Source of the DNA: an uncultured Cytophagales bacterium
GTDB lineage: Bacteria > Bacteroidota > Bacteroidia > Cytophagales > Cyclobacteriaceae
NCBI GenBank assembly: GCA_913057175.1
Contig: CAJXNP010000003.1
Location: forward strand, 62,001 to 126,000
Reading direction: 5' to 3'
Length of the DNA stretch: 64,000 nt
Shown: piece after piece, positions 4,898-34,194 of the stretch
How the letters are laid out: the number at the start of each line of letters is the position of its first letter
How positions within the stretch are numbered: the first letter of the stretch is position 1
Notes under the pieces: generated by a model
The model's database searches: none
Seen by the model: the letters and a program-made list of their open reading frames with translations, nothing else
What the model was told of the DNA's origin: nothing
Translations under genes and position numbers: made by a program

Positions 4898-5075
4898 AAA
4901 TTCCATTTGAGGAATGGTTCTTATTCGATGGATTTAATGTCACCCCTTCGGGGTTTATGGTAAATATCAATTTTTGGGCTAAAATAATTTCATCTATAAT
5001 AATATCACCCCTTCGGGGTTTGTGTTTGTACATTTATCCATTCTATAATAATTTCATCCCTTTGGGATTAGTTTT
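4898..5075 (+). mobile_element. 3'-end remnant of RAYT transposase followed by REP-like palindromes
   Basis: gaaattccatttgaggaatggttcttattcgatggatttaatgtcacc nearly repeats the 3' end of the intact transposase at 5797-5845; REP words at about 4940, 5006, 5054. Confidence 0.7.
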
Positions 5076-5303
5076 ATTGGTTATTTTTCTATTTGAATTA
5101 AATGGTGATTCGATTTTTTGGCAACCAATAAATCGAAAATAATTTCTTATAAACTTCTTTCAGGTTTGACATTCTGGTAAATACAAAACTGATATGAAAC
5201 ATGCCATTTTAAACTTGTTTACACCTAATGTTTGGAATTCGAATAATATGGAGTTATTTTTCTTATTCTTAATTTACAACTGGATTATTTTCAAATCCAT
5301 GAA

Positions 5304-5375
5304 AATCCCGAAGGGATGACATTTTTATAGAAAAATCCATTTTTTAATCAATCAAAACCCCAAAGGGGTGGTACA
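5304..5375. repeat. Inverted-orientation REP-like palindromes upstream of RAYT
   Basis: aatcccgaagggatgac and aaaccccaaaggggtgg; identical 40-bp block at 522-561. Confidence 0.7.
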
Positions 5376-5379
5376 AATC

Positions 5380-5838
5380 ATGGCAGGAACATTCTCTCAA
5401 ATTTATATACAATGTGTATTTGCAGTAAAAGGAAGAAAAAACCTGATTCACAAAACATGGAAAGAAGAGGTCTACAAATACATGGCTGGAATTATTAAAA
5501 ACAAAGGTCAAAAACCAATTATTATCAATGGCGTCGAAGATCATGTTCACCTTTTTGTCGGATTGAAACCTTCCATGGCATTGTCTGACCTCATGAGGGA
5601 TGTTAAAAATAATACCACCAATTTTATCAATGAAAATAATTGGGTTCCTGAAAAGTTTTCATGGCAGGAAGGTTTTGGTGCGTTTTCATATTCTCATTCC
5701 CATATTGACAAGGTGTATCAATATATCCTTAACCAGGAGATTCACCACCAAAAGAAAACTTTCAAAGAAGAATACATGGAATTGCTGGACAAATTTGAAA
5801 TTCCATTTGAGGAAAGGTTCTTATTCGAATGGATTTAA
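5380..5838 (+). CDS. REP-associated / IS200-like Y1 HUH transposase (RAYT-like)
   Basis: HUH motif in VEDHVHLFVGLKPS; catalytic-Tyr region HIDKVYQYILNQEIHHQKKTFKEEYMELL; flanked by REP palindromes. In-frame ATG at 5380 preferred over 5368. Confidence 0.85.
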   Translation: MAGTFSQIYIQCVFAVKGRKNLIHKTWKEEVYKYMAGIIKNKGQKPIIINGVEDHVHLFVGLKPSMALSDLMRDVKNNTTNFINENNWVPEKFSWQEGFGAFSYSHSHIDKVYQYILNQEIHHQKKTFKEEYMELLDKFEIPFEERFLFEWI

Positions 5839-5957
5839 TGTCACTCCTTTCAGGGTTTAACTTTTCACACTTGTATTTTGGGTATAATAATTTCATCCCC
5901 CAATATAAACAGTGAAGGTTTTCATGGATTTCACCCTTTCTTTTTTAACATTCGATG

Positions 5958-6114: not shown

Positions 6115-8538
6115 ATGCTCCGACACCACATCAAACTGACATTGCGCAATCTTTGGAAAAACAGAAGCTTTTCAGCTATCAATATTTCCGGCTTTGCCAT
6201 TGGAATTGCTGCCGCGACCATGTTGCTGATGTACACCTGGGATGAGCTGTCCTATGATAATTTTCATGCAAAAAAGGATGACATCTACCTGGTTGGTGTC
6301 AAACAGCAGGGTAAGGATGGTGAGACTGAAAGCGGATGGACCACTCCTCCAACCGGGCCGGCACTCAATGGATACTTTCCGGAAATAGAGACCTTCACAA
6401 GGGTTTGTATCTGGTTTGACGATGTGACGACCAGACGAGGTCAGGAAAAATATATTGAGAAAAATGTTGTCGGCGCCGATTCCACATTCTTTGACGTGTT
6501 TACTGTGAATTTCCTTGCAGGTAATCCTCAAACAGCATTAAAAGAGCCTAATTCTGTTGTCATCACAAAAAGTATCGCCGAAAAATACTTTGGCAATGAA
6601 AATCCCATTGGCAAGACGATGGAATTTGAATCATTTTTCAGTGAATGCACCATTACCGGTCTGATTGAAGACCTGCCGGAAAACAGTCATCTTGAAATTG
6701 ATATCCTGTTTTCCCTCAGCTCCCTTCGTAATATTAATTTTGATTTCGATAAAAGCTGGGAGAACCATACCTTCATTACCTATGTCCTGCTCAATGAATT
6801 TGTCGATCCGCAGGTAGTTGAATCCAAAATCCCCGATTTCCTGAGCGAAAAAATGGGAGCATACTTCCAAAATTCATATGGTCAATCCTTTGAGGAAATG
6901 ATGAACGGAGGAAGCGATTACCGGCTATTTCTTGCTCCGTTAAAAGATGTTCATTTAAGCACTTATGTGCACGAAGGTAAAGAAGGCAAGAAATTAATGA
7001 CCTATGCTTTAGGATTGATAGGTTTGGTCATCATCATCTTAATTTGCATCAACTTTACCAATCTGTCGACATCACTCGCCATAGATCGTATCAGGGAGGT
7101 CGGTGTTAGAAAAACATCAGGAAGTTTGAAATGGTCAATGATCCGCCAGTTTCTAACCGAATCTGTTGTGACGGTTCTAATTGGGTTCGTGATTGGTTTA
7201 GCCATCATGCAATTGGTTCTCCCCTATTTCAATAACCTGACCGATAAAAATCTAAGCTTAGATTTCTTTCATTTGCCTTTTGTCTTATGGGTATTGGGCA
7301 TCGCCGTCCTTCTCGGAATTATCACCGGACTGTATCCTGCTATATATCTTTCATCTTTCAGTCCCATTCAAGCCTTAAATCCAAATCCAGGCGAAAGATT
7401 AAACACGACTTTTGTACGAAATGGCCTGGTTGTGTTTCAGTTTGCCTTGTGCATTTTCATGATCACAGGTACCATTGTTGTGTACAAACAATTGTCACAT
7501 CTAACCCAAATAAATATTGGATTTGACAAAGAACACATTTTAGTTGTGAAACGACCCTGGGCTCTTGGGGAAAAAATGTGGACGTTGAAAGAAGAATTGT
7601 TGGACGATCCTCAGATAAAATATATTTCCTACACGAATACCCTTCCCGGCAGACATTTTGACGGACACGGGCAGCATTTTTCAGGAGATCCAACCGATGT
7701 TGGGTATACCATCTATCCATTGATTGGCGATCCGGACATTCTGAAATTACTGGACCTTGAAGTGGTTGCAGGAAGAGAGTTTACTGCTGAAGATAAAAAT
7801 AAGCCCGTAGTCCTGCTCAATGAAGCTACCGTCCAAAGATATGGTCTGAAAGATCCTCTCAATAAAAAAATTAACGTCGGCACCATGGGCCGAAAAGAGG
7901 TCTCTGTTGTTGGGATTGTGAAAGACTTTCATTTCCAGTCCTTTCACAATCAGATTGAACCAATGGCGATTTTCCAGACCAATCAGGATCAGATGTACAA
8001 TACCAATTACATGTTGATCAAAACTACGGGAAAAGAGCTGTCCGGAATAATTGAAAACGTAGAATCAAGATGGAATAAAATTACCGAAAACCAACCTTTT
8101 GAATATACGTTTCTCGACCAGGATTTTGCGCATGTGTTTGAAAGGGAGGTGATTACATCAAAGGTATATACAATTTTTTCCACTATATCCATCATGATTG
8201 CAAGCCTGGGTTTATTGGGGTTGGCCATGTTCTTCACCAAAAAACGAACAAAAGAGATTGGAATTAGGAAAGTAAATGGCGCGAAAATATGGCAGGTTCT
8301 GTTATTACTTAACAATGATTTTATCAAAAGAGTGCTGATCGCTTTTACCATAGCAAGCCCGCTTGCATGGTATACGATGAACAAATGGCTCGAAAACTTC
8401 GCTTATCAGACAGAGCTGAGCTGGTGGATATTTGCTTTGTCAGGTCTTCTGGCCTTAGGAATTGCGCTGTTATCCGTTAGCTGGCAGAGCTGGAAGGCGG
8501 CAACGAGGAATCCTGTCGAAGCATTAAGATATGAGTAG
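6115..8538 (+). CDS. ABC transporter permease, MacB/FtsX family (807 aa)
   Basis: N-term LRNLWKNRSFSAINISGFAIGIA, periplasmic core, two FtsX domains, C-term RNPVEALRYE. Confidence 0.9.
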   Translation: MLRHHIKLTLRNLWKNRSFSAINISGFAIGIAAATMLLMYTWDELSYDNFHAKKDDIYLVGVKQQGKDGETESGWTTPPTGPALNGYFPEIETFTRVCIWFDDVTTRRGQEKYIEKNVVGADSTFFDVFTVNFLAGNPQTALKEPNSVVITKSIAEKYFGNENPIGKTMEFESFFSECTITGLIEDLPENSHLEIDILFSLSSLRNINFDFDKSWENHTFITYVLLNEFVDPQVVESKIPDFLSEKMGAYFQNSYGQSFEEMMNGGSDYRLFLAPLKDVHLSTYVHEGKEGKKLMTYALGLIGLVIIILICINFTNLSTSLAIDRIREVGVRKTSGSLKWSMIRQFLTESVVTVLIGFVIGLAIMQLVLPYFNNLTDKNLSLDFFHLPFVLWVLGIAVLLGIITGLYPAIYLSSFSPIQALNPNPGERLNTTFVRNGLVVFQFALCIFMITGTIVVYKQLSHLTQINIGFDKEHILVVKRPWALGEKMWTLKEELLDDPQIKYISYTNTLPGRHFDGHGQHFSGDPTDVGYTIYPLIGDPDILKLLDLEVVAGREFTAEDKNKPVVLLNEATVQRYGLKDPLNKKINVGTMGRKEVSVVGIVKDFHFQSFHNQIEPMAIFQTNQDQMYNTNYMLIKTTGKELSGIIENVESRWNKITENQPFEYTFLDQDFAHVFEREVITSKVYTIFSTISIMIASLGLLGLAMFFTKKRTKEIGIRKVNGAKIWQVLLLLNNDFIKRVLIAFTIASPLAWYTMNKWLENFAYQTELSWWIFALSGLLALGIALLSVSWQSWKAATRNPVEALRYE

Positions 8539-8606
8539 TACCTTAATGTGGAGATCCCGACAAAGCGTTATCGATCGTCGGGATAGAAGCATTGAGGCAT
8601 GAGTAA
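8539..8606 (+). repeat. Hairpin plus echo of the gene 3' end (module 1)
   Basis: ATCCCGAC...GTCGGGAT stem, then gaagcattgaggcatgagtaa (EALRHE*) at 8586-8606 echoing gaagcattaagatatgagtag (EALRYE*) at 8518-8538. Confidence 0.75.
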
Positions 8607-11296: not shown

Positions 11297-13645
11297 ATGA
11301 TCAAACATTTTATCGTCACTGCATTCAGGAATATACTAAGGAAAAGGACCCTATCCTTTATCCAGATATTTGGCTTAGCACTTGGCATTACTGCATTTCT
11401 TTTAATTGCCAAATATGTGCAGTATGAAAAAAACTGGGACAAATTCAACACCTATTCTGACCGTATTTACAGGGTTCAACTTTATAAAAAGACAGATGCA
11501 TTAGATGTCGATACCCAAACTTCACCTCCTGTGTCCACCTATATTTCGCAAAACATATCGGATGTTGAAGAAGCTATTACTATCAAGGAGGTTTGGGGTG
11601 AATACCTCTCTCCAAATCCCGAGGCTACTTTTTATGAACCCAATGGATTTTTTGCACCAAGTGAAATATTCTCCATTTTCTCCATTGACCTGATTGAAGG
11701 TGATTTGGAAAATGTCTTAGATCCACCCAACGCCATTGTTTTGTCAGAATCCATGGCGAAGAAATACTTCCCGAAGAGCAATAATTATGTAGGCAAAATC
11801 ATCCTGGACAATCAAAAGAAAGAGCTTGTGATTACCGGGATTATGAAAGACCTTCCAGAATATTCCCACATCAGGCCTGATTATCTTCGCTCCATCACAG
11901 AAATAATGAAATACGATACGAACTGGGGCAATGATTCTTATAAAAACTACGTGCTTCTTAAACCCCATATCAGTGCCCAAAAAATCGATGCCCAAATAAA
12001 ATATCTATATGATGAACATACGGAATTAAATAAATACTACCTCTTTCTGCATCCATTGGGGAAATTGCATCTGGAGCCGGATCGATCAGGTGATCTAAGT
12101 GCAGTAGTATTTTTCAACAGCCTGATTGGCATATTAATCCTGGTCCTGGCCCTTGTTAATTTCATGAATTTGTCCACCGCTTTTTCTTCCACCCGATCGG
12201 TTGAAATCGGCATACGAAAAACCAATGGCAGCAGCCGGAAATCCATTGCATTTCAATTTCTTTTTGAGTCGATGTTTCTTGCAACCATTGCTTTTATATT
12301 GGCAGTCGGTCTTTCATTTATTTGCCTGCCCTATTTTAATCACATCGTCGATCGGGAGATCACCCTGTCGCTGACCAATGACTTTACCATTTTACTATTT
12401 GTATTCCTGATCATCATTTTATCGAGCATCATTTCAAGTGCCTATCCGGCAATCCTGGCGTCGCGATTTAATCCAATTAAAGTGTTGAAAGGAAAAAACC
12501 TGATCCAGGGAAAAAAAGGATATGTTTCCGGAATGAAGGCTATGGTTTACATCCAATTTGTTCTATCAGCGATTCTGATTGCGACAAGTCTTTGGAGTTT
12601 CAAGCAGGTTCAGTATTTACAAAACAAGAGTCTTGGCTTTAACAAAGATCAACTATTGCATACCCGAATGGATGCAAACCAATCTAATTGGTCATACCAA
12701 ACCCTGAGGGAGGAGTTATTGGCTAAACCAGGGTTAAATAATGTAACAATCTCCTCAAATTCGCCTCTACATAGTAATTGGGGAACAGGAGTATTTTATG
12801 AAAATGGTCCAACTGACGAATACAGGCATGTGAATTTTAATTACGCATGCCCTGATTTCATTGATACCTATCAGATTACGTTATTGGATGGAAGGAACTT
12901 TTCAAAAGATTTTTCTGCCGATGACAACGGCTGCCTGATCAATGAAACAGCGGTAATGAAATTTGGCTGGAAGGACCCTATTGGTAAATGGATTGAACTT
13001 CACGATAAAAAATTAAATGTAATCGGTGTGGTGAAGGATTTTCATCAGGGCGATGTCCATAACCTGATCCAACCTTTTGTATTAATGTTGCATGACGGCA
13101 ATATGAACCAACTGAATGATTACACATTTCAAATCAATCAAAATACCCGTCAAGCATCGGTTGACCACATTAAAAGTGTTTTCAACGAAGCATTCCCAAA
13201 CAGTCTCTATCAGATATTTGACTTTGAGGACGACGCAGATCGGACGGAAATAAAGATCTGGTCCAGTGCTCGCGACACATTTGGTTTTTTCGCATGTATA
13301 GCCATTTTGATTGCCATTGTAGGGATATTTGGATTAATCGTTTTTGCCACACAGCGAAAAGTCAAGGAAATAGGAATCAGGAAAGTGCAGGGCGCTACGA
13401 TCTTCCAGGTCTTTAGATTATTTATAAAAGAATATATGGTATTGTTAATCCTGGCCAATATCTGTATCTACCCGGTATTTCCGACACTGGTAGAATATAC
13501 ACCAGGAGCTTATAAATATCATGCATCAATTTTAGATATTTTAATTGTGATCACCATTACGATCATGGTTGTACTGGTCTCAAGCGGATACCTTGCCTAT
13601 AAAGCAGCATCTAGAAATCCTGTTGAGGCACTCAGATATGAGTGA
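11297..13645 (+). CDS. ABC transporter permease, MacB/FtsX family (782 aa)
   Basis: MIKHFIVTAFRNILRKRTLSFIQIFGLALGI ... NPVEALRYE. Confidence 0.9.
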   Translation: MIKHFIVTAFRNILRKRTLSFIQIFGLALGITAFLLIAKYVQYEKNWDKFNTYSDRIYRVQLYKKTDALDVDTQTSPPVSTYISQNISDVEEAITIKEVWGEYLSPNPEATFYEPNGFFAPSEIFSIFSIDLIEGDLENVLDPPNAIVLSESMAKKYFPKSNNYVGKIILDNQKKELVITGIMKDLPEYSHIRPDYLRSITEIMKYDTNWGNDSYKNYVLLKPHISAQKIDAQIKYLYDEHTELNKYYLFLHPLGKLHLEPDRSGDLSAVVFFNSLIGILILVLALVNFMNLSTAFSSTRSVEIGIRKTNGSSRKSIAFQFLFESMFLATIAFILAVGLSFICLPYFNHIVDREITLSLTNDFTILLFVFLIIILSSIISSAYPAILASRFNPIKVLKGKNLIQGKKGYVSGMKAMVYIQFVLSAILIATSLWSFKQVQYLQNKSLGFNKDQLLHTRMDANQSNWSYQTLREELLAKPGLNNVTISSNSPLHSNWGTGVFYENGPTDEYRHVNFNYACPDFIDTYQITLLDGRNFSKDFSADDNGCLINETAVMKFGWKDPIGKWIELHDKKLNVIGVVKDFHQGDVHNLIQPFVLMLHDGNMNQLNDYTFQINQNTRQASVDHIKSVFNEAFPNSLYQIFDFEDDADRTEIKIWSSARDTFGFFACIAILIAIVGIFGLIVFATQRKVKEIGIRKVQGATIFQVFRLFIKEYMVLLILANICIYPVFPTLVEYTPGAYKYHASILDILIVITITIMVVLVSSGYLAYKAASRNPVEALRYE

Positions 13646-13702
13646 CAAAATCCCGACAGAGCGTTAGTGACCGTCGGAATAGAGGCGCTGAGGTATGAAT
13701 AG
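13646..13702 (+). repeat. Hairpin plus gene-end echo (module 2)
   Basis: ATCCCGAC...GTCGGAAT then gaggcgctgaggtatgaatag (EALRYE*) at 13682-13702, synonymous with 13625-13645. Confidence 0.75.
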
Positions 13703-16750: not shown

Positions 16751-19156
16751 ATGATACGGAGCTACCTGAAAATCGCCTTCCGAAACATTAATAAAAACAA
16801 AGTTAATTCCCTTATTAACATCGTTGGGCTTTCCATCGGGATCACTTGCTGCATTATCATCATTATTTTTGTTAACTACGAATCAAACTTCGACAGCCGC
16901 CATTCCCATTCAGCGCTGACTTACCGTGTCGTTCAGCATACGAAAATGCCCGAACAGACTTTGCATTGGAATACGACAGCATACCCATTGGCAGAAGCGC
17001 TCAGAAATGATTTTCCGGAATTAGAGATGGTAACGCAATCGGCAGGACCAGTAAACCGGATGTTTAGTGTTGAAGGTCGTAATGGAAATATCTTTCGCTT
17101 CGAAGAAAACTTCGTTCTGTTTGTGGATTCCTATTACCCCAGGGTGTTTGATCTCGAATGGATTCAAGGAAGTCCGGAATCTGCTTTAAAGGATCCAAAT
17201 TCAATTGTATTGACAGAAAACATTGCCGAAAAAATTTTTGGTGATATCACCTTAAGCAAGCCGTCAATTCTCGGTAAGGTTATCATATTAAATGGAAAAG
17301 ATCCACTCACCATTACCGGAGTCGTCAAAAATCCTCCAGGAAATACCAACCTTCAATTCAACCTGCTTATTCCTTATGAATTTTTTAAAATGCATAATGT
17401 TTACCAGACCAATAACTGGTCTGGGAATTACCAGGGAACCACTTTCCTGGTTTTACCTGATAAAAACATCAAAGACGACGTCCAGGATAAAATCGCCGGT
17501 TGGAAAAAGAAATATCTCAAACCTGAAGATGACAACCGGATTTCATATGAGCTTCAGCCACTTTCAGAATCACATACAGAAACGCTATATGGGAGCAGTC
17601 CGGGCGGATATACCATGCCTCGCTACCTGCTTCAAACAGCCTATTTTGTAGCCTTATTTATCCTGATCATCGCCATTGTCAATTTCGTGAACCTCACGAC
17701 TGCCCAGGCAACATCCCGTGCAAAAGAGGTGGGAATAAGAAAAACCGTCGGAAGTACGCGATTGGATCTGATCAGGCAATTCACTTTTGAAAATACCGTA
17801 CTTGTTATAATCTCTCTTGCTCTTTCGACGGTGAGCGTTCATTTTTTGATCAGTCAACTCAATGACCATTTATCCATCATTAATTTGCAATTATCTTTTG
17901 AGTGGAGTAATGCTGGTTTGATTATCCTTATTGGCTGTCTTACTATCATTCTTGCAGCCTTTTATCCGGCTTTTGTACTTTCTTCTTTCAAACCCATTCA
18001 GGCCATTAAGGACAAGATTTCGACAGGAAACAAGAGTGGTTTAACCTTTAGGAAGTCGCTGACCGTATTTCAGTTTTTAATTGTCCAGCTTTTTGTCATT
18101 GCCGCTATGGTCGTTGCCATCCAAATGGATTATTTCAGAAGCAAAGAACTAGGATTTTCATCAGAGGCAGTCATTTCAACTCCGGTCCCGGAATTCAATA
18201 AAATCGAGGTGTTCAAAAACTCGCTTTTGCAAAACAATAAGATTTCGAACGTGGCCATTGGCTCGGGACCACCCATGGCGGTAGATGGATTTATGCTCGG
18301 TACAACTTTCCGACTTCCTCATCAAAGCAAGGAAGAAGCGCAGGAATCAGAAATGAAGATTGGCGATTTGAATTACCTCGACTTTTTTGATTTGCAACTG
18401 ATCGCCGGAAGGAACTTTAGGACTACTAAACAGGCATTCGATGAGTTTATCGTAAATGAAAAACTACTGAAATCGATGGGATGGACACCAGAGGAAGCTA
18501 TCAGTAAAAAGCTTGTGATCAATGAAGGAGAAGCTATAATTGTTGGCGTTGTGAAAGACTTTCACAATAATTCCCTGCAAAATGAGATCACACCCTGCAT
18601 TATTATGAATTGGAATTACTTCCAGGACCAGGCTTTTATTAAAGTTGAAAACACAAGCAGTGGATACCTGCCTGCTATCAGGGAAATATGGGAAGAGGTA
18701 TTTCCAACCTCGGTTTATCGCTATGGGTTTGTCGATGATTCGATAGAAAGGGAATACCAACTTGAAAGCCTTGTTTTTAATGGATTTACCCTTTTTTCTA
18801 TTCTGGCGATAACCATCGGATGTCTGGGATTATTTGGGTTGGTTACATTTGCTACGGAGCAAAGAGTCAAAGAAATCGGCATCAGAAAAGTGCTGGGGTC
18901 AACGGTAACTCAAATTGTCACCATGCTCACCAGAGACTATGTCAGCCTTGTGTTGATTTCGTGTTTCATAGCGTTTCCAATTGGATTTTACCTGACGAAC
19001 AAGTGGCTTCAAAATTTTGCTTATGGAATAGATACCCATTGGTGGATCTTTGCATTAGCAGGATTCATTACCATACTTATTGCCTTTATCACCGTCAGTT
19101 TTAAAAGTATCAGGTCGGCCCTGGCAAACCCTGTGAAAAGTCTACGATCGGAATAA
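16751..19156 (+). CDS. ABC transporter permease, MacB/FtsX family (801 aa)
   Basis: MIRSYLKIAFRNINKNKVNSLINIVGLSIGIT ... NPVKSLRSE. Confidence 0.9.
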   Translation: MIRSYLKIAFRNINKNKVNSLINIVGLSIGITCCIIIIIFVNYESNFDSRHSHSALTYRVVQHTKMPEQTLHWNTTAYPLAEALRNDFPELEMVTQSAGPVNRMFSVEGRNGNIFRFEENFVLFVDSYYPRVFDLEWIQGSPESALKDPNSIVLTENIAEKIFGDITLSKPSILGKVIILNGKDPLTITGVVKNPPGNTNLQFNLLIPYEFFKMHNVYQTNNWSGNYQGTTFLVLPDKNIKDDVQDKIAGWKKKYLKPEDDNRISYELQPLSESHTETLYGSSPGGYTMPRYLLQTAYFVALFILIIAIVNFVNLTTAQATSRAKEVGIRKTVGSTRLDLIRQFTFENTVLVIISLALSTVSVHFLISQLNDHLSIINLQLSFEWSNAGLIILIGCLTIILAAFYPAFVLSSFKPIQAIKDKISTGNKSGLTFRKSLTVFQFLIVQLFVIAAMVVAIQMDYFRSKELGFSSEAVISTPVPEFNKIEVFKNSLLQNNKISNVAIGSGPPMAVDGFMLGTTFRLPHQSKEEAQESEMKIGDLNYLDFFDLQLIAGRNFRTTKQAFDEFIVNEKLLKSMGWTPEEAISKKLVINEGEAIIVGVVKDFHNNSLQNEITPCIIMNWNYFQDQAFIKVENTSSGYLPAIREIWEEVFPTSVYRYGFVDDSIEREYQLESLVFNGFTLFSILAITIGCLGLFGLVTFATEQRVKEIGIRKVLGSTVTQIVTMLTRDYVSLVLISCFIAFPIGFYLTNKWLQNFAYGIDTHWWIFALAGFITILIAFITVSFKSIRSALANPVKSLRSE

Positions 19157-19168
19157 AAATACTAAACT

Positions 19169-19260
19169 ATGCTTAAAAACTACTTCAAAAATCGCCTGAG
19201 CAAACATTACAAAAAAACAATATTCTATCACATTTGCCTCCACCAACCCGACACTCAATT
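19169..19260 (+). pseudogene. Vestigial 5' end of a further permease gene
   Basis: atgcttaaaaactacttcaaaaatcgcctgagcaaacattac: MLKNYFK then frameshifted IA*ANITK, matching MLKNYFKIAWRN; upstream junction duplicated at 21785-21864. Confidence 0.65.
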
Positions 19261-21837: not shown

Positions 21838-24222
21838 ATGCTTAAAAACTACTTCAAAATCGCGTGGTGAAACCTAACCAGAAATAAAAGTTTTGCCATC
21901 ATCAACACATTGGGTTTGGCGCTTGGTTTTGCCTGCTGCATCCTGATCTATTCGTTTGTTCAATACAATTTGAGCTTTGACGATTTCCATGAAAATTCAG
22001 ATCGCATATACCGGATCGTGACAGAAGAACACCGTGATTACATCGATTACGAGGCTAGTGTCCCTCCTGCATTGGGAAGGGAATTTCGGAATGATTATGA
22101 TTATGCGGATAAGATCGCCCGGATCGCCACCATGGAAGAACAGATCATTTCTTTTACACAAAATGGCCTGAAACAAAAGTACGAGGAAGAAGTTGCCTTT
22201 GCAGAGCACGAATTCTTCGAGATTTTCCATTATCCATTAATCTCCGGAAGTTCATTTGATTTTCTCACCGAACCCAATACAGCTATTATCACCGAACGCA
22301 TTGCTTCAAAGTTTTTCGGGAGCACTGATGTTATCGGAAGGACCTTCCAACTCGATAACCGGATCGAACTTACCGTACGTGGCATCCTGAAAGACCTTCC
22401 GTTTAATACGCTCAGGCAATCCGAAATTTATATCTCCTACCCTACTATCGAGGATTATGGAGGATTTATTGCCGGCGACAACTGGAATGGTATATCAAGC
22501 GCCCTACAGTGTTTCACCTTGCTGAAACCAAATATCTCTCCGCAGTTGGTTGAGAGTGAATTACAAAAGTATGTTCCTATCAAACGTGCAAATAATAAAA
22601 ACGTGCATCATTACAAACTCCAGCCAATAGCGGATGTGCACTACAACACCCAATATGATGGAGTCATTTCCAAGCAAACCCTTTTGGTGTTTTCCTTTAT
22701 CGGGCTATTCCTGATCATTGCCGCTTGTATTAATTTCATCAACATGTCTACGGCACAGGCGATGAGCCGGTCCCGCGAAGTAGGTGTCCAAAAAGTTTTA
22801 GGTGGGTATCGATGGCAATTATTCCGAAGGTTTATGAGTGAAACGGCTTTACTGAGCCTGTTTTCATTGTTCCTTGGTTTGATATTGGCATATATCCTCT
22901 TACCATACCTCAACAAATGGTTTGAAGTTAATATCGTTGCATATCAGCTGATGGTTTTTGAATTCCTGATTTTTGTTGCCGCTCTATTTATCGGCATCAC
23001 CCTATTTGCAGGTGTTTACCCGGGATTATTGTTATCCGGAATTTCACCAACGCTGGCATTGAAAGGTAAGCTCACCCAGCATCATACAGGAAGTCTTTTT
23101 ACCCGGAAATCACTCATTATTACCCAATTTGTGATATCCCAGGTGTTAATTGTCGGTATGATTGTGATTGGCAAACAAATGCATTTCGCTCTCAATACGG
23201 ACCTGGGTTTTGAAAAGGAGGCCATTATTACTGTCAGTATTCCAGCTGAGTTGGATTATGAAAAACGAAATGACCTAAAAAACAGGATGTTGGATATTCC
23301 CAATGTCCAGGAGATTACAGCATGTCTTGCCCCGCCTTCCCATTCCAACAATTGGGGAACAGGATTGCGATTTGACAACCACCCGGAGGATGAAGAATTC
23401 TCCATCCAGGTCAAAGCGGCTGACGAGGATTACCTGGAAACTTTTGACCTGGAATTGATCGCGGGAAGGAATTTCTTTCCATCCGAATCGGCCAAGGAAT
23501 TTGTAGTTAATGAGAAGCTTGTGAAAAAATTGAACCTCCATTCTCCTGATGAAATTATTGGGAAGACCCTATCAGTGAATGGTGGTTCTACAACCGGGCC
23601 AATCGTCGGAGTTGTCAGGGACTTTCACAACTGGGACCTTCATTCGGAAATTGACCCGGTCTTTATCACAACCCTGGATTTTGCCATAAGCCTTTACGCT
23701 ATCAAGATCAACATGAACAATCCTCAAAGTACCATCGATCAAATCGAAACCAATTGGAGTGAAGTCTTTCCCAATTATATCTTTGATTATGAATTCCTGG
23801 ATGAGCACATTGCGAGGTTTTACGAATCCGAAGCCAGAACTTTCAGACTAATCCAGGTATTCACATTATTGGCGATTTTCATCAGTTGTCTGGGCATGTT
23901 TGGTCTGATTTCATTTTTGGTCAACAGAAAAACCAAGGAAATAGGTGTACGAAAAGTATTGGGAGGAAGTGTTGCCCATGTACTTTGGTTATTTCTGAAT
24001 GAATTCCTTAAGCTGGTTATGGTTGCAGGAATAGTTGCCATACCAATTTCATGGTTTATGATGGACAGCTGGCTTCAAAATTTCCAATACAAAATCGAAA
24101 TAGGCATCTGGATCTTTGGTATTGCCGTGCTGGCAAGCCTTGTCATTACTTTCATCACAGTAGGATTTCAGAGTATGAAAGCAGCGTTGACGAATCCGGC
24201 GAAGAGTTTGAGAACGGAGTGA
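21838..24222 (+). pseudogene. ABC transporter permease, MacB/FtsX family, with in-frame TGA at codon 11 (ORF track restarts at TTG 21910)
   Basis: atg ctt aaa aac tac ttc aaa atc gcg tgg TGA aac cta acc aga aat aaa = MLKNYFKIAW*NLTRNK; the rest is intact to NPAKSLRTE. Confidence 0.75.
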
Positions 24223-25350: not shown

Positions 25351-26217
25351 ATGAAATTCGGAAGAGTTGACCACCCGGAACAAATAGATTTTACACTTCC
25401 TCCTGATCATCCGGATACAGATAAAATACTGAATAATGGAGGGGATGGCTTTGAAGCCTATGTGGGTTGTGCGAAATGGAATCGTCAGGACCTGAAGAAC
25501 TTTTATCCACGGGGAACAAAGGACGAGCTTACCTATTATTCCCGACAATTTAATAGCATTGAGCTCAACTCCACTTTTTACAACACCCCTTCCAGCCAAC
25601 AAGTGGTAACCTGGAAAAACAAGACTCCTGAAGGTTTTAAGTTCTTTCCAAAAATTACGAATAGCATCAGTCATTTTAAGCGATTGACGAATGTTAAACC
25701 CTTTGTAGATGAATATTGCGATGCCGTTAGCTCTTTTGAGGAAAAGTTAGGAGCGGTTTTCCTGCAACTACATGACAACTTTAAACCTGTAGATCTGTAT
25801 AGGGTGGAAAAATTCATCAAAGAATTTCCAAAGGCAATCCCCCTGGCAATAGAAGTAAGGAACCAGGAATGGTTTCAACAAACAAAAGAGGTTCAACAAT
25901 TTTATGATCTGATGGAAGATCATGATGTCACGAACATCCTGGTTGATACAGCCGGTCGAAGGGATATGCTTCATATGCACCTTACTACTACGGAAGCATT
26001 TGTGCGCTATGTAGGTGCTAACCATCCCAGTGATTACAACAGGCTGGACGACTGGGTGGATCGCATTAAAATTTGGAAAGAAGAAGGGCTAACCAAACTA
26101 TACTTTTTTGTCCATCAAAATATAGAAAAAGAATCACCCTTACTGTCTGCCTATTTTATCAAAAAGCTGAATGATGAATTAGGGACGAATCTTAAGGTTC
26201 CGGAAACACTTGGTTGA
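25351..26217 (+). CDS. DUF72 family protein (YecE-like)
   Basis: AYVGCAKWNRQDLKNFYP ... YYSRQFNSIELNSTFYNTP ... GFKFFPKITNSISH ... AVFLQLHDNF. Confidence 0.88.
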   Translation: MKFGRVDHPEQIDFTLPPDHPDTDKILNNGGDGFEAYVGCAKWNRQDLKNFYPRGTKDELTYYSRQFNSIELNSTFYNTPSSQQVVTWKNKTPEGFKFFPKITNSISHFKRLTNVKPFVDEYCDAVSSFEEKLGAVFLQLHDNFKPVDLYRVEKFIKEFPKAIPLAIEVRNQEWFQQTKEVQQFYDLMEDHDVTNILVDTAGRRDMLHMHLTTTEAFVRYVGANHPSDYNRLDDWVDRIKIWKEEGLTKLYFFVHQNIEKESPLLSAYFIKKLNDELGTNLKVPETLG

Positions 26218-26218
26218 G

Positions 26219-26364
26219 TTATTAAGTTATTGGTTGATTAGTTTATTGAGTTAATTGGGTTTCTGGTTTCCAGGTTCTTGTTGCTGGTTCTTGTAAGGAT
26301 CCGTAGCGGCATCTCGCAACACATTCACTCCCTTACCTCTCTGCTCTTTGCCCTCTGCCTACTT
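26219..26364. repeat. Heptad/octad super-repeat, inverted orientation
   Basis: attaagtt attggttg attagttt attgagtt (period 8), gggtttc tggtttc caggttc (period 7), cccttac ctctctg ctctttg ccctctg cctactt (period 7); abuts UAS D. Confidence 0.7.
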
Positions 26365-26699: not shown

Positions 26700-29063
26700 A
26701 TGCAGTTAAAAAATATCATTTACGCGCTTAGGCACATTACACGATACAAGGAATACTCACTCTTGAACGTAATTGGTTTGTCTCTTGGCATGGCTAGCGC
26801 CATCCTGATCATGCTGTGGGTAGAACATGAGGTTCGCACGGATAAATTCCATGCAAATGGAAAAGACATTTACATGATGCGAAAACTGGTGAAATATTCC
26901 GATGGGGAAATCTCTATCAGTACTGCTATGACCAGTCCTTTTGCTCCGATTATTGAAAAAGATATTCCCGAAGTAGAGCATGCCGTTCGGGTCACCTGGG
27001 AACAAGAGTTGCTTTTCCGCCTAGGAGATAGAATGTTTTACGAAAAGGGCCATTATGCTGACAGCTCTTTCTTTAATGTCTTTTCCTTTCCATTGGTTTT
27101 GGGTGACCCTTCAAATGCCCTTAGTGACCCAAATAATGTTGTGATATCCGAAAAGTTAGCCGAAAAATATTTCGGCAAAGAAAATGCCATGGGAAAGGCC
27201 ATTCGGATTCGTGGGGATAAAGAGGAAGTTTTCACTGTCACCGGGGTATGTAAAGAATCCCCCACCTACTCTTCCCTGAAGTTCGACTTCATCATTCCGT
27301 ATAGCAAGTATGCAGAATACAACAAATCCTGGATCGGTTGGGGCAATTTTCATATGATGACTTTCGTCCATGCTCAACCGAACGTAAGTAAGGAAATCAT
27401 CGAAAGTAAGATCAATGAATTATATGAAAAACATGGCACCTGGGAATTGCCATCCTTTTTTCTTCAATCATTGAATGACATTCATTTATATAGCAGGTAC
27501 GAAGAATCCCCGGACAGTCCATCAGGTTTGATCCTCTACGTACGGATATTTTCATTAGTAGCGCTGTTCATCATTTTTCTCGCCTGTATGAATTATACCA
27601 ACCTGGCGACTGCTATTGCCACCCGTCGCGGAAGGGAAGTTGGTGTTAAAAAAGTATTCGGCTCAGGAAGACGTTTTATCTTTCAGCAATTCATTGCAGA
27701 AGCATTGACCCTTACCGTTCTCAGCTTCTTGCTATCAATCGTGATTGTTATGTTGGCGCTACCTATGTTCAATAAACTGATTGATACCAATCTTACCTTT
27801 GACTTTCAAAATTACAGGATCATATTGATTGCTTGCCTGGTTCCTCTTTTTACAGGATTTCTGGCAGGGATCTTTCCGGCTATGTACATGTCTTCCTTTA
27901 AACCGATCACGGTTATGAAGAGTTTCTTCAATCCGAGAAAAGGGCTCCCCCAGCTCAGGCAATCACTGGTCGTTTTTCAATTCGTAATCACCATTGTATT
28001 CATCATCAGCTCCCTGCTTATATTCAAACAGATCCAATTTATCCAAAACAAAACATTGGGATTAAATGAAGACAACATTCTTTTCTTTCCACAATCCCTA
28101 ACCATTCAGAAACATCAGGAAACGTTCAAACAGGAACTCGAAAAGCTGCCTGGTGTCTTATCTGTTTGCTATACAAGCGATTCTCCTCTGCAGGTAGGAA
28201 GCGACACGTCAGACCCAAGGTGGCGAGGTAAAAGTCCTGATTATAACCTCAGTGTACCTTATATCCGCGTTGATCACGATTTTTGTGAAACTTTTAATGT
28301 GAACATCATTGCCGGAAGAGATTTCAACGAAAAATATCCTTCTGATACGAATTCCGTCATCATCAACCAGAAATTTGCTGAGATCATGGGATTTGAAGAT
28401 CCTGTGGGTGAAGTTCTGGAATATTGGGGGCGCCGGGCAAATATAATCGGTGTAGCCAAAGATTTTCACATCGGCGGAATGCGCAGACCGATCCAGCAGC
28501 TCCTGATCATTAACCGCCCATCCACCACATGGATTACCATGGTTCGGGTTGACGGAAATATGAGACAGGAAGCGATTAAAAGCATTGAAAGTACCTTCAG
28601 GGTTTTTGATGAAACGGTACCATTTGAGTACGAATTTGTCGATGAGGATTATGCAAAAAGCTATGATTCGGAGAAATACCTCAGCCGGCTGGCGATGCTT
28701 TTTACTGTACTTTCAATTGTCATTTCCTGTCTTGGACTATTTGGCCTGGCTCTATTTACAGCTGAACAACGCACAAAAGAAATTGGTATTAGAAAATCTA
28801 TCGGAGCCAAAACCTCCCAGGTAATGACCTTACTAACCAAAAAATTTCTCACATGGGTAATCCTGTCTTTTTGCATTGCCAGCGTCATCTCTTACTATGT
28901 CATGCAGCTCTGGCTGGAAAGTTTTGCCTTCCGAACAGACATCTCATGGGAGGTATTCCTTGCAACCGGCTCAATAGCCGTTTTCATTGCGCTGATGACA
29001 GTCAGCTGGCAGGCGTATCGTGCAGCTAATCGAAATCCTGTTGAATCGCTACGATACGAGTAG
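26700..29063 (+). CDS. ABC transporter permease, MacB/FtsX family (787 aa)
   Basis: MQLKNIIYALRHITRYKEYSLLNVIGLSLGMA ... NPVESLRYE. Confidence 0.9.
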   Translation: MQLKNIIYALRHITRYKEYSLLNVIGLSLGMASAILIMLWVEHEVRTDKFHANGKDIYMMRKLVKYSDGEISISTAMTSPFAPIIEKDIPEVEHAVRVTWEQELLFRLGDRMFYEKGHYADSSFFNVFSFPLVLGDPSNALSDPNNVVISEKLAEKYFGKENAMGKAIRIRGDKEEVFTVTGVCKESPTYSSLKFDFIIPYSKYAEYNKSWIGWGNFHMMTFVHAQPNVSKEIIESKINELYEKHGTWELPSFFLQSLNDIHLYSRYEESPDSPSGLILYVRIFSLVALFIIFLACMNYTNLATAIATRRGREVGVKKVFGSGRRFIFQQFIAEALTLTVLSFLLSIVIVMLALPMFNKLIDTNLTFDFQNYRIILIACLVPLFTGFLAGIFPAMYMSSFKPITVMKSFFNPRKGLPQLRQSLVVFQFVITIVFIISSLLIFKQIQFIQNKTLGLNEDNILFFPQSLTIQKHQETFKQELEKLPGVLSVCYTSDSPLQVGSDTSDPRWRGKSPDYNLSVPYIRVDHDFCETFNVNIIAGRDFNEKYPSDTNSVIINQKFAEIMGFEDPVGEVLEYWGRRANIIGVAKDFHIGGMRRPIQQLLIINRPSTTWITMVRVDGNMRQEAIKSIESTFRVFDETVPFEYEFVDEDYAKSYDSEKYLSRLAMLFTVLSIVISCLGLFGLALFTAEQRTKEIGIRKSIGAKTSQVMTLLTKKFLTWVILSFCIASVISYYVMQLWLESFAFRTDISWEVFLATGSIAVFIALMTVSWQAYRAANRNPVESLRYE

Positions 29064-29118
29064 CGAGGAGATCCCGATAGTGAAACGTATCGGGATAGAG
29101 TCTTTGTGATATGAATAA
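29064..29118 (+). repeat. Hairpin plus gene-end echo (module 3)
   Basis: ATCCCGAT...ATCGGGAT then gagtctttgtgatatgaataa (ESL*YE*) at 29098-29118 versus gaatcgctacgatacgagtag (ESLRYE*) at 29043-29063. Confidence 0.75.
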
Positions 29119-29132
29119 AAAATTTCTGAATT

Positions 29133-31247: not shown

Positions 31248-31392
31248 GGCAGGGAGCAGAGAGGCAAGGTGAATGTGTTGCGGGTTGCCAGTTGCGAGTC
31301 AAAAAGAACCATCAACAAGGACCCATAAACCAGAAACTCAATCAACCAATTAACTTAGTGATTAATTAACTCAATAGCCAATGATAAAAAGT
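31248..31392. repeat. Heptad/octad super-repeat R1 (13 heptads then octads)
   Basis: ggcaggg agcagag aggcaag gtgaatg tgttgcg ggttgcc agttgcg agtcaaa aagaacc atcaaca aggaccc ataaacc agaaact | caatcaac caattaac ttagtgat taattaac tcaatagc. Confidence 0.85.
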
Positions 31393-31531
31393 GTAGAGAG
31401 CGGAGAGGAAAAGGGTTGCGTGTTACGGGTTGCCAGTTACGGGTCAAAAAGAACCATCAACAAGAACCCTGAAACCAGCAACCCAATTAACTAAATAGAC
31501 CTATTAACATAATAACTCAACAACATAATCC
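31393..31531. repeat. Heptad/octad super-repeat R2 (13 heptads + 6 octads), ending exactly at the next start codon
   Basis: gtagaga gcggaga ggaaaag ggttgcg tgttacg ggttgcc agttacg ggtcaaa aagaacc atcaaca agaaccc tgaaacc agcaacc | caattaac taaataga cctattaa cataataa ctcaacaa cataatcc | ATG. Confidence 0.85.
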
Positions 31532-33901
31532 ATGATTAAAAACTACCTCAAAATTGCGTGGAGAAACATTGCTAAACACAAAGTGTTTTCGGCTATCAAT
31601 ATTCTTGGCCTGGCGATGGGTGTCACATGCAGTCTGCTGATCGCCCTATGGGTGATCGATGAGTATCAAACGGATTCCTTCCACGAAGATATCGACCGGA
31701 TTTATACTGTTTACGAGCGTCAGTATTACGATGGAAAGATAGAAGCCGGTTATTATACTCCTGGAGTTCTGGCGGAAGAAATGAAAAAGGTTCTTCCGGG
31801 TGTTGAATATGCAACAGGCATGTCATGGAATGATTATCATACCTTCGCTGCAGGAGACAAATCCATGAAGTTTGAAGGCACTTATACAGGAAACGATTTC
31901 TTCAACATTTTTTCCTTCCCTATTATTCACGGTTCTAAAGATGACGCTTTGAGCGCACCGGAGTCCGTTGCTATTTCCCGAAACATGGCCAATAGCTTTT
32001 ATGGAAGTCCGGAAGCGGCCATCAATCAGACATTGAAATTTGAGAATGAAAAGGACCTGACCATCACGGCCATTTATGATATTCCTGAACGGGCATCTAG
32101 AAAATTCCAGTTTCTGCTCAACTGGGATCATTTCCTGGAAGGACATGTATGGGCACAGGATTGGACGAACAATGGCCCTCAAACATACTTCAAATTGAAA
32201 AAAGGAATCGACACTGAATCTTTTGAAGCCAACCTGACAAATTTCCTTGATAACTACAACAAAGAGCAGGGAGACGATTTTCATATCGAACTCGGTATGC
32301 AGCGGTTTGACAGAATGTACCTTGAATCGCGATTCCATAATGGGGAAATTGTTGGTGGCAGGATTGAATATGTTCGCATATTCAGCATTGTAGCCATTTT
32401 CATTCTCTTTATCGCATGCATCAATTTCATGAACCTGGCTACAGCCCAATCCGGAAAACGCGCGAGGGAAATTGGTGTCCGAAAAGTAATTGGCGCTTAT
32501 CGGGCTGGTTTGATCCGGCAGTTTATCAGCGAGTCTATTCTTATCACGCTATTTTCAGTTGTTCTTGCAGTTGTATTAGTCATTGTCCTTCTACCGGTTT
32601 TCAATACCATGGCAGGCAAGAGTATTCAGCTTCCTTTTGATCATATTTATTTCTGGTTGGGTCTGATTTTGTTGGTCCTTACAACCGGTTTGATTGCCGG
32701 TAGCTACCCTTCATTTCTGCTTTCTTCCTTTCGTCCCGTCATCACCCTCAAAGGTGGTAAAAGCTCCGGATCGGGAAATTCCTGGATGAGGAAGGGTTTG
32801 GTCGTATTCCAGTTTACGCTATCCATCTTATTTGTGGCAGGCACGATCGTGGTCTCCCGACAGGTTAATTTTATTCAGAATGTAAACCTGGGTTATGAAA
32901 AAGAAAACCTGTTATACATTCCGCTAGATGGAAAACTCTTTTCAAATTTTGAGACATTTAAAGCTGAGGCTGGTAAAATTCCCGGGATAGAATCCATCAG
33001 CAGGATCTCGCAAAGACCCGTTGAAATGGAAAACGGTACCGGTGGCGTTGATTGGGATGGCAAAGATCCTGAATCAATGTCCATGTTTACCTACATGGCA
33101 GTGGGCTATGATTTTGTTAAAAACATGAAAGTCGAAATACTTGAAGGAAGGGACTTTTCAAAGGAATTTGCGACGGATAGTACGAATTATATAGTAAATG
33201 AATCTGCTTTGGCTAAAATCGGGTATAAAGACCCTATTGGAAAAAGGTTGTCATTTTGGGGGAATGAAGGAATAATTGTTGGGGTTGTAAAGGATTTTCA
33301 TTTCAATACCTTGCACGTGCCCATCGAACCAATGATCATCCGATTGGGCAAAACAGATGATTTCAGCTATGCAGTAGTCCGAACAGGTATTGGACAGACT
33401 CAACAGGCTATACAGGGATTGGAATCATTTTGTGAAAGGTTTAATCCGGAATTTCCTTTTGCCCATCAGTTCGCGGATAAGGAATACACAGAGGTTTATC
33501 AAAGTGAAAATACAGTCCGTCAATTGTCCGGTTATTTTGCTTTCCTGGCTATTTTCATTTCATGTCTGGGACTGCTTGGCCTGGCCATGTATACTGCCGA
33601 GCAACGAACTCAGGAACTTGGCATACGGAAAGTTTTGGGAGCAAATATCCAATCGTTGTTTGCTTTATTATCAAAAGAATATGTCCAACTCATGCTGATT
33701 GCATTTGTCATTTCCGTACCTCTTTCCCTTTGGGCGCTCGATAGCTGGCTACAAAACTATGCCTATAAAATCGAAATAAGCTGGTGGATGTTTGCTGTAG
33801 CAGGCATGTCTGTTATGCTGATTGCAATTCTGACCGTCAGCTTCCAGGTATTGAAAGCAGCTTTTGCCAATCCGGTAAAGGCGATACAGGCTGGTGAATG
33901 A
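31532..33901 (+). CDS. ABC transporter permease, MacB/FtsX family (789 aa)
   Basis: MIKNYLKIAWRNIAKHKVFSAINILGLAMGVT ... NPVKAIQAGE. Confidence 0.9.
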   Translation: MIKNYLKIAWRNIAKHKVFSAINILGLAMGVTCSLLIALWVIDEYQTDSFHEDIDRIYTVYERQYYDGKIEAGYYTPGVLAEEMKKVLPGVEYATGMSWNDYHTFAAGDKSMKFEGTYTGNDFFNIFSFPIIHGSKDDALSAPESVAISRNMANSFYGSPEAAINQTLKFENEKDLTITAIYDIPERASRKFQFLLNWDHFLEGHVWAQDWTNNGPQTYFKLKKGIDTESFEANLTNFLDNYNKEQGDDFHIELGMQRFDRMYLESRFHNGEIVGGRIEYVRIFSIVAIFILFIACINFMNLATAQSGKRAREIGVRKVIGAYRAGLIRQFISESILITLFSVVLAVVLVIVLLPVFNTMAGKSIQLPFDHIYFWLGLILLVLTTGLIAGSYPSFLLSSFRPVITLKGGKSSGSGNSWMRKGLVVFQFTLSILFVAGTIVVSRQVNFIQNVNLGYEKENLLYIPLDGKLFSNFETFKAEAGKIPGIESISRISQRPVEMENGTGGVDWDGKDPESMSMFTYMAVGYDFVKNMKVEILEGRDFSKEFATDSTNYIVNESALAKIGYKDPIGKRLSFWGNEGIIVGVVKDFHFNTLHVPIEPMIIRLGKTDDFSYAVVRTGIGQTQQAIQGLESFCERFNPEFPFAHQFADKEYTEVYQSENTVRQLSGYFAFLAIFISCLGLLGLAMYTAEQRTQELGIRKVLGANIQSLFALLSKEYVQLMLIAFVISVPLSLWALDSWLQNYAYKIEISWWMFAVAGMSVMLIAILTVSFQVLKAAFANPVKAIQAGE

Positions 33902-34194
33902 GGGTTGCAGGTTACCAGTTGCGGGTTGCGAGTTACCAGTTACGGGTTACACGAAACTAGCAACCGGCAACTCGCAACAATTAACAATATTTTTACAATC
34001 AACTCAATCAACCAATTAACTTAGTAACCAATTAATTCATTAGCCAATGATAAAAAGTGTGGAGGGTGGAGAGCAAAAAGGGTTGCGGGTTGCCGGCTAC
34101 CAGTTGATCAAGATCAAAAAAACCAGCAACAAGAACCAAGAAACCAGAAACCCTATTAACTTAATAACTCAATAACAATTAACTACTTTTATAC
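33902..34194. repeat. Heptad/octad super-repeats R3/R4
   Basis: 33902-33950: gggttgc aggttac cagttgc gggttgc gagttac cagttac gggttac; then GCAAC heptads, octads, 'caatgataaaaagtgt', and a second round to the ATPase start. Confidence 0.8.

Follow-up and report, generated by a model that had tools for sequence, protein, structure and literature searches.

We describe a double-hairpin arrangement at the 3' ends of MacB/FtsX-type permease genes which is probably a cassette of about 45-85 bp, comprising a recoded gene tail, a hairpin over the stop codon (hairpin 1), a spacer and a second hairpin (hairpin 2), that displaces the old end of the gene and spreads by recombination. About 36 such units, two of them doubtful, were found in ten genomes from three Bacteroidota lineages and two classes. 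This would be a very small DNA cassette that rewrites gene 3' ends with little or no change of the protein, spreads among paralogs and occurs in lineages far apart within one phylum. Should it be active, it would rank with the smallest gene-replacing elements and connect the turnover of gene ends with RNA or DNA structure at the stop codon.

The window, i.e. the whole stretch of 64,000 nucleotides analysed, belongs to a tandem array comprising about 22 MacB/FtsX-type permease genes (PF12704/PF02687 matches) on contig C3 of a 6.6-Mb genome, which to judge from its relatives is one of the Bacteroidota. Searching this genome for a hairpin end plus echo, i.e. a second version of the gene's last codons further downstream, yielded four units, all placed directly after permease stops (window positions 8538, 13645 and 29063, and C3:38588). 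The three inside the window had already been reported in a sequence-only reading of this DNA and are all borne out; the fourth, at C3:38588, adds to them. The order is gene, hairpin 1 over the stop, spacer, hairpin 2 and echo, with the following features:

26700-29063, plus strand: MacB/FtsX-type permease of 787 amino acids ending in NPVESLRYE-stop, carrier of unit 3 (open reading frame; PF12704 and PF02687 matches)
29046-29066, plus strand: unit 3 hairpin 1 over the stop codon, TCGCTAC-GATACGA-GTAGCGA, a perfect 7-bp inverted repeat (folding; covariation with five units from other genomes)
29071-29096, plus strand: unit 3 hairpin 2, ATCCCGATA...TATCGGGAT, with GGAG in front (sequence)
29098-29118, plus strand: unit 3 echo ESL*YE* with internal TGA, read as the displaced old gene end (sequence; putative in its identity as an echo)
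8521-8549, plus strand: unit 1 hairpin 1 over the stop of the permease at 6115-8538, GCATTAAG...CTTAATGT (folding)
8554-8584, plus strand: unit 1 hairpin 2, ATCCCGAC...GTCGGGAT, with GGAG in front (sequence)
8586-8606, plus strand: unit 1 echo EALRHE* (sequence)
13629-13644, plus strand: unit 2 hairpin 1 over the end of the permease at 11297-13645, CACTCA-GATA-TGAGTG (folding)
13650-13680, plus strand: unit 2 hairpin 2, ATCCCGAC...GTCGGAAT, one mismatch (sequence)
13682-13702, plus strand: unit 2 echo EALRYE* (sequence)
C3:38588, outside the window: unit 4 hairpin 1, TCACTC-AGATAT-GAGTGA (folding)

Unit 3 had been described as a tail, a hairpin and an echo reading ESL-TGA-YE at 29043-29118, and the sequence is as described: the tail is GAATCGCTACGATACGAGTAG (29043-29063), the echo is GAGTCTTTGTGATATGAATAA (29098-29118), and between them stand ATCCCGAT (29071-29078) and ATCGGGAT (29089-29096). 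The hairpin noticed there is hairpin 2; overlooked was hairpin 1, seen by folding, which is formed by the gene's own last codons together with the stop codon (arms TCGCTAC at 29046-29052 and GTAGCGA at 29060-29066). The fold z-score of 29034-29097 is -4.5. Hairpin 2 in this genome has the form ATCCCGAY...RTCGGGAT, and 100 shuffles of the window gave no chance match to the hairpin pattern. At 4 of 21 array permease ends, a peptide encoded downstream agrees with the tail in five or more of six residues, against 0 of 420 shuffled flanks, supporting the earlier view that hairpin plus echo is a non-random arrangement recurring at permease ends, which other genomes show too. In a tree of the array the unit-carrying permeases do not cluster together, and this scatter does not support one event inherited by whole-gene duplication.

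Several further observations concern the array and the genome around it. A cassette-free permease at C3:33475 (locus L035, position 11475) has tail codons nearly those of unit 1 (GAAGCATTAAGATATGAATAA), possibly, to judge from its codons, a transfer without the hairpins. For the permease given as 21910-24222, the probable start codon is the ATG at 21838; its frame is then interrupted by a TGA at 21868-21870, a position held by Arg in the paralogs (KIAW-stop-NL), which is likely a nonsense mutation near the start. The 28 nucleotides opening a permease (TAAACTATGCTTAAAAACTACTTCAAAA) are repeated exactly at 19169-19200 and 21838-21865, after permeases ending at 19156 and 21825; no permease stands behind the first copy, which resembles a truncated gene start. 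Imperfect intergenic repeats built on GGGTTGC...CCAGTT and AACCCAATTAACT, one copy being inverted, lie at 31264-31500, 33898-34170 and 26217-26300 (repeat-list families D9-D15 and I1-I3). Away from permeases, multi-hairpin clusters at G000:C4:35241 (L043) and G000:C25:75747 (L046), including ATCCCGAT-ATTTTC/GAAAAT-ATCGGGAT beside AAGCTCCGCTTTCGTCAGGGTTAA, form another palindromic repeat family of the same genome.

Echoes and recoded tails

The echo of unit 3 had been taken for a copy of the gene's current ESL tail. This does not hold for unit 4, in which the tail reads ESL and the echo EAL, and the evidence favours the opposite direction: most plausibly, the echo is the end that the gene once had, now displaced, and the present tail came with the cassette. 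Three lines of sequence evidence point this way, i.e. an ortholog pair, codon classes and changed residues.

The orthologs G662_02 and G570_02, whose proteins are 92% identical, are the sole empty/filled pair, G570_02 having 56 extra bases; the gap alone fits insertion or loss. In G570_02, the echo GGTGAAATCATTGAGGACGGAATGA continues into TAAATATTGGTTTAATGGTTAGATG, in agreement with the end of the G662 gene, GGTGAAGAGTATGAGGACGGAATAA, and the flank behind it. The codon classes separate tails from echoes: the counts for tails, echoes and cassette-free ends are 22/4, 10/20 and 32/35 for Ser TCN/AGY, 32/4, 8/26 and 34/46 for Arg CGN/AGR, and 5/31, 24/10 and 55/25 for Leu codons ending in G or not. 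Echoes are indistinguishable from cassette-free permeases (p 0.27, 1 and 0.06), and carrier tails differ from both (p 0.001 to 3e-8), these p-values being optimistic since the units are not independent of each other. Residues have changed as well, with AALRSE standing over KSLRTE in G655 and KSLRTE over KSLRSE in G613. The echoes show decay (H, M, an internal stop, a lost stop) as expected for sequence no longer translated, and several are broken. In plain identity, echoes are closer than tails to cassette-free tails in direction, not significantly (p=0.10), so that it is the three lines named above which carry the claim. No young unit with identical tail and echo was seen among the 36. Echoes may serve as fossils giving the order of events in genomes.

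This supports a model according to which a gene would, on arrival of the cassette, receive from the cassette its stop codon and the 5-7 codons in front of it, leaving the protein end the same or nearly so, while its former last codons would be shifted downstream of hairpin 2 and left as a decaying echo.

If gene ends had been duplicated in place again and again, through slippage during replication or a switch of template at a hairpin, tail and echo would be diverged sisters and the hairpins products of the same mutational process. Tail and echo do encode nearly the same peptide, and stems could arise by template switching; we nevertheless regard this as highly improbable, given the Ser TCN codons of tails against AGY in echoes and the other codon-class differences, the tail and echo pairs with different residues, the match of echo plus flank to the empty allele, and the fact that nearly the same cassette precedes different echoes, both in unrelated paralogs and across genomes.

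Translational explanations were also considered. In-frame read-through of the stop was rejected: units 2 and 4 keep the frame, yet the distances from stop to echo are spread over all three frames (13, 11, 12). In programmed ribosome bypassing, as in T4 gene 60 and the byp elements, a complete protein end arises only if the ribosome jumps from a take-off to a matching landing codon. Here the tail is complete before the gap and several echoes are broken, so no ribosome jump is needed.

Recurrence and spread

Recurrence of hairpin plus echo at permease ends of related genomes had been named as a check on the arrangement, and further genomes do carry it. Among 142 permease ends from 80 related loci, a unit was found only in a Chitinophagaceae genome (isolate SJ21, here G529; locus L127), with tail KSLRTE and echo KSLRTE. 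The genome carries further copies. At locus L132 (contig C75), one permease is followed by a tandem pair, with tail AALRSE, echo KAVRTE, a second hairpin 2 and a second echo KSLRTE, which suggests repeated arrivals at one site. At L129 (contig C56), an unrelated reading frame is closely followed by a short remnant of a permease that bears a full unit.

The hairpin 2 plus echo pattern is present in 6 of 249 genomes of the family of G529, always following permease ends or the L129 remnant, and the reversed control pattern had no match in these 249 genomes. It occurs in 1 of 297 genomes of the window's own family, this being the genome of the window itself; a looser pattern added two genomes from another class of the phylum, at permease ends again. 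The hairpin 2 core (31-mer, at most 3 mismatches) was found in 1 of 395 genomes of the class, solely at three permease ends of the window's own genome, leading us to reject a dispersed genomic repeat. A genus search around G613 gave no second genome. The pattern searches found no unit away from permease ends, all matches lying at permease ends or the permease remnant. As these searches required a CCCG...CGGG hairpin, the constancy of hairpin 2 is partly by construction and true unit numbers are probably higher. Reading out the carrier arrays gave 36 units and 81 cassette-free permease ends; the two doubtful units, at positions 2384 and 17419 of G613, are without clear hairpins. A position after the first permease of a transcription unit, as had been proposed from the window, is no rule: G656 has four unit-carrying permeases within 11 kb.

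The cassette behaves as a discrete tract. In 16 same-type carrier pairs within genomes, tail plus hairpins are 92% identical, whereas identity is 60% in the upstream coding sequence, 80% in the echo and 31% in the 50 nucleotides after it. Units 2 and 4 have cassettes 91% identical in carrier proteins only 30% identical at the C-terminus. The spacer before hairpin 2 (ATCCCG...CGGGAT) is often CGAA, CGGA or GGAG. Two observations favour recombination over site-specific insertion: the replaced tract in G570_02, for which no donor was found, takes in about 95 coding bases ahead of the cassette, and tails of the AALRSE type are accompanied by the codons that precede them. Recombination between permease gene ends is further supported by the copies being found solely in permease genes.

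According to this model, the cassette would spread when a permease gene that carries it recombines with one that does not. One crossover would fall within the conserved NPV codons or upstream of them, the other between the donor's echo and the homologous tail of the recipient, where the right-hand homology would be only about 20 bp. Each such event would leave a new echo made of the recipient's own end. More tentatively, as a possibility to which we give somewhat less than even weight, the cassette could be a selfish element of less than 100 bp confined to the 3' ends of one transporter family, in which the recoded end within the stop-codon hairpin makes its arrival harmless, the host's old end provides the landing homology and the echo is the scar of each arrival.

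REPINs and derivatives of IS200/IS605 are thought to be moved in trans by single-strand (HUH/Y1) transposases, and the units could likewise be non-autonomous hairpin elements with hairpins 1 and 2 as ends and the permease tail as fixed target. We consider this unlikely. The two hairpins with similar purine-rich feet, the discrete boundaries and the precisely displaced old end would fit, as would the Y1 transposases encoded by 9 of the 10 genomes that carry units or are related, with one such gene lying shortly upstream of the unit 1 permease. However, none of the 30 Y1 loci examined, a part of the Y1 matches, holds an ATCCCG...CGGGRT hairpin, and no autonomous IS200/IS605 copy with shared end hairpins was seen among them; G662 carries a unit and has no Y1 match; no unit turned up outside permease ends; in G570_02 the replacement took in a coding tract; and a fixed insertion after GAR fails for the AALRSE type with its co-travelling codons. 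The Y1 gene of the window has its own palindromes (CACCCCTTCGGGGT).

That gene, of the REP-associated Y1 type, lies at about 5380-5838 within window positions 4940-5860 and is flanked by copies of the palindrome TCACCCCTTCGGGGTTT (4940, 5005, 5303 and 5355, with one more at 343); the region is likely a RAYT/REP locus beside the permease array.

Upkeep of hairpin 1

Compensatory changes maintain the hairpin 1 stem over the stop codon. Across six sequences that share one geometry and come from two classes, 95.8% of the cells pair and 5 of 8 pairs have changed on both sides, the arms differing in sequence (GGCGCTAC/GTAGCGCC, GGCATTAC/GTAATGCC, GAGTTTAC/GTAAACTC). The covariation score of 0.75 was reached by none of 500 shuffles, and slid versions gave at most 0.24; a second group of six sequences, more alike, shows weak covariation. 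The stem is better than expected from synonymous recoding of the tail (p<0.05) in 18 of 36 units against 0 of 81 cassette-free ends, the 18/36 and similar counts being inflated by related sequences. Maintenance by compensatory changes suggests a role in the RNA, which might be that of an mRNA 3' boundary in permease operons; alternatively, the hairpins may persist through a role in mobility.

Compatible with the cassette reading is the proposal that the units are primarily a regulatory RNA device, i.e. an attenuator, a processing site or a 3' stabiliser between permease cistrons, with the echo being incidental. The compensatory changes in hairpin 1, the low folding energies and the placement between co-directional genes speak for it; as the primary explanation it appears quite improbable to us, because the very patchy distribution (1/297 and 6/249 genomes of the two families) weighs against a widely required regulator, most of the carrier-array permeases are without a unit (81 ends against 36) and the echo would be left unexplained. 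Hairpin 2 is followed by GATAGAGTC and not by a T-run, and the scan gave no terminator-like site at 29060-29120, so hairpin 2 is not a classical intrinsic terminator; Rfam 15 had no match above gathering score in window positions 4500-35000. The permease arrays lend themselves as natural replicates for tests of what hairpins at stop codons do.

Comparison with known systems

The double-hairpin gene-end cassette looks undescribed so far; no description of a gene-end-replacing double hairpin was found in the searchable literature, with subscription papers lying outside this scope. The units resemble REP/REPIN sequences with their RAYTs in being short paired palindromes near gene ends (PMC3116915, PMC3733652), and GTAG REP termini often supply the stop codon of flanking ORFs (PMC3733652). 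Unlike REPs/REPINs, they occur in one gene family and in few copies, their tail re-encodes the protein end and the old end is displaced. High-copy extragenic dispersal is absent, the core standing at three permease ends of its own genome and other matches at permease ends or a remnant; the feet of clear-stem hairpins 2 are mostly CGAA, CGGA, GGAG, GAAG and TAAT, not the GTAG or CGTC tetranucleotides; and no cognate RAYT flanked by the same palindromes was found among the 30 Y1 loci, part of the Y1 matches. A link to RAYT/REP is not supported, with no unit-like hairpin at the Y1 loci examined and separate palindromes at the Y1 gene of the window.

A likeness in position is offered by Borrelia lipoprotein genes, where IS605-specific stem loops stand at the 3' ends of a paralogous family and are maintained at the RNA level despite sequence change, deriving from IS605 ends that also flank the transposase gene (PMC2775950). 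The units share the stem loops at 3' ends of a paralogous gene family; they have in addition a displaced gene-end copy, none being described in the abstract on the Borrelia genes (PMC2775950). Rickettsia palindromic elements, about 150 bp long, add an in-frame peptide to unrelated genes and are likewise small palindromic elements turned coding (PMC10969869). Unlike these, the units hit one gene family and keep the peptide.

Integrative elements inserting in a gene's 3' end restore the gene with an incoming end and displace the old one. Unlike these, the units have neither integrase nor cargo, measure at most about 85 bp and have end repeats that are imperfect and not identical. Gene conversion in tandem paralog arrays exchanges tracts between paralogs, and the units are like it in showing a shared tract between flanks at background identity (92% in the cassette against 60% and 31%) and, in G570_02, a tract that includes coding sequence; they differ from plain gene conversion in their fixed architecture, their maintained hairpins and the echo that is always left.
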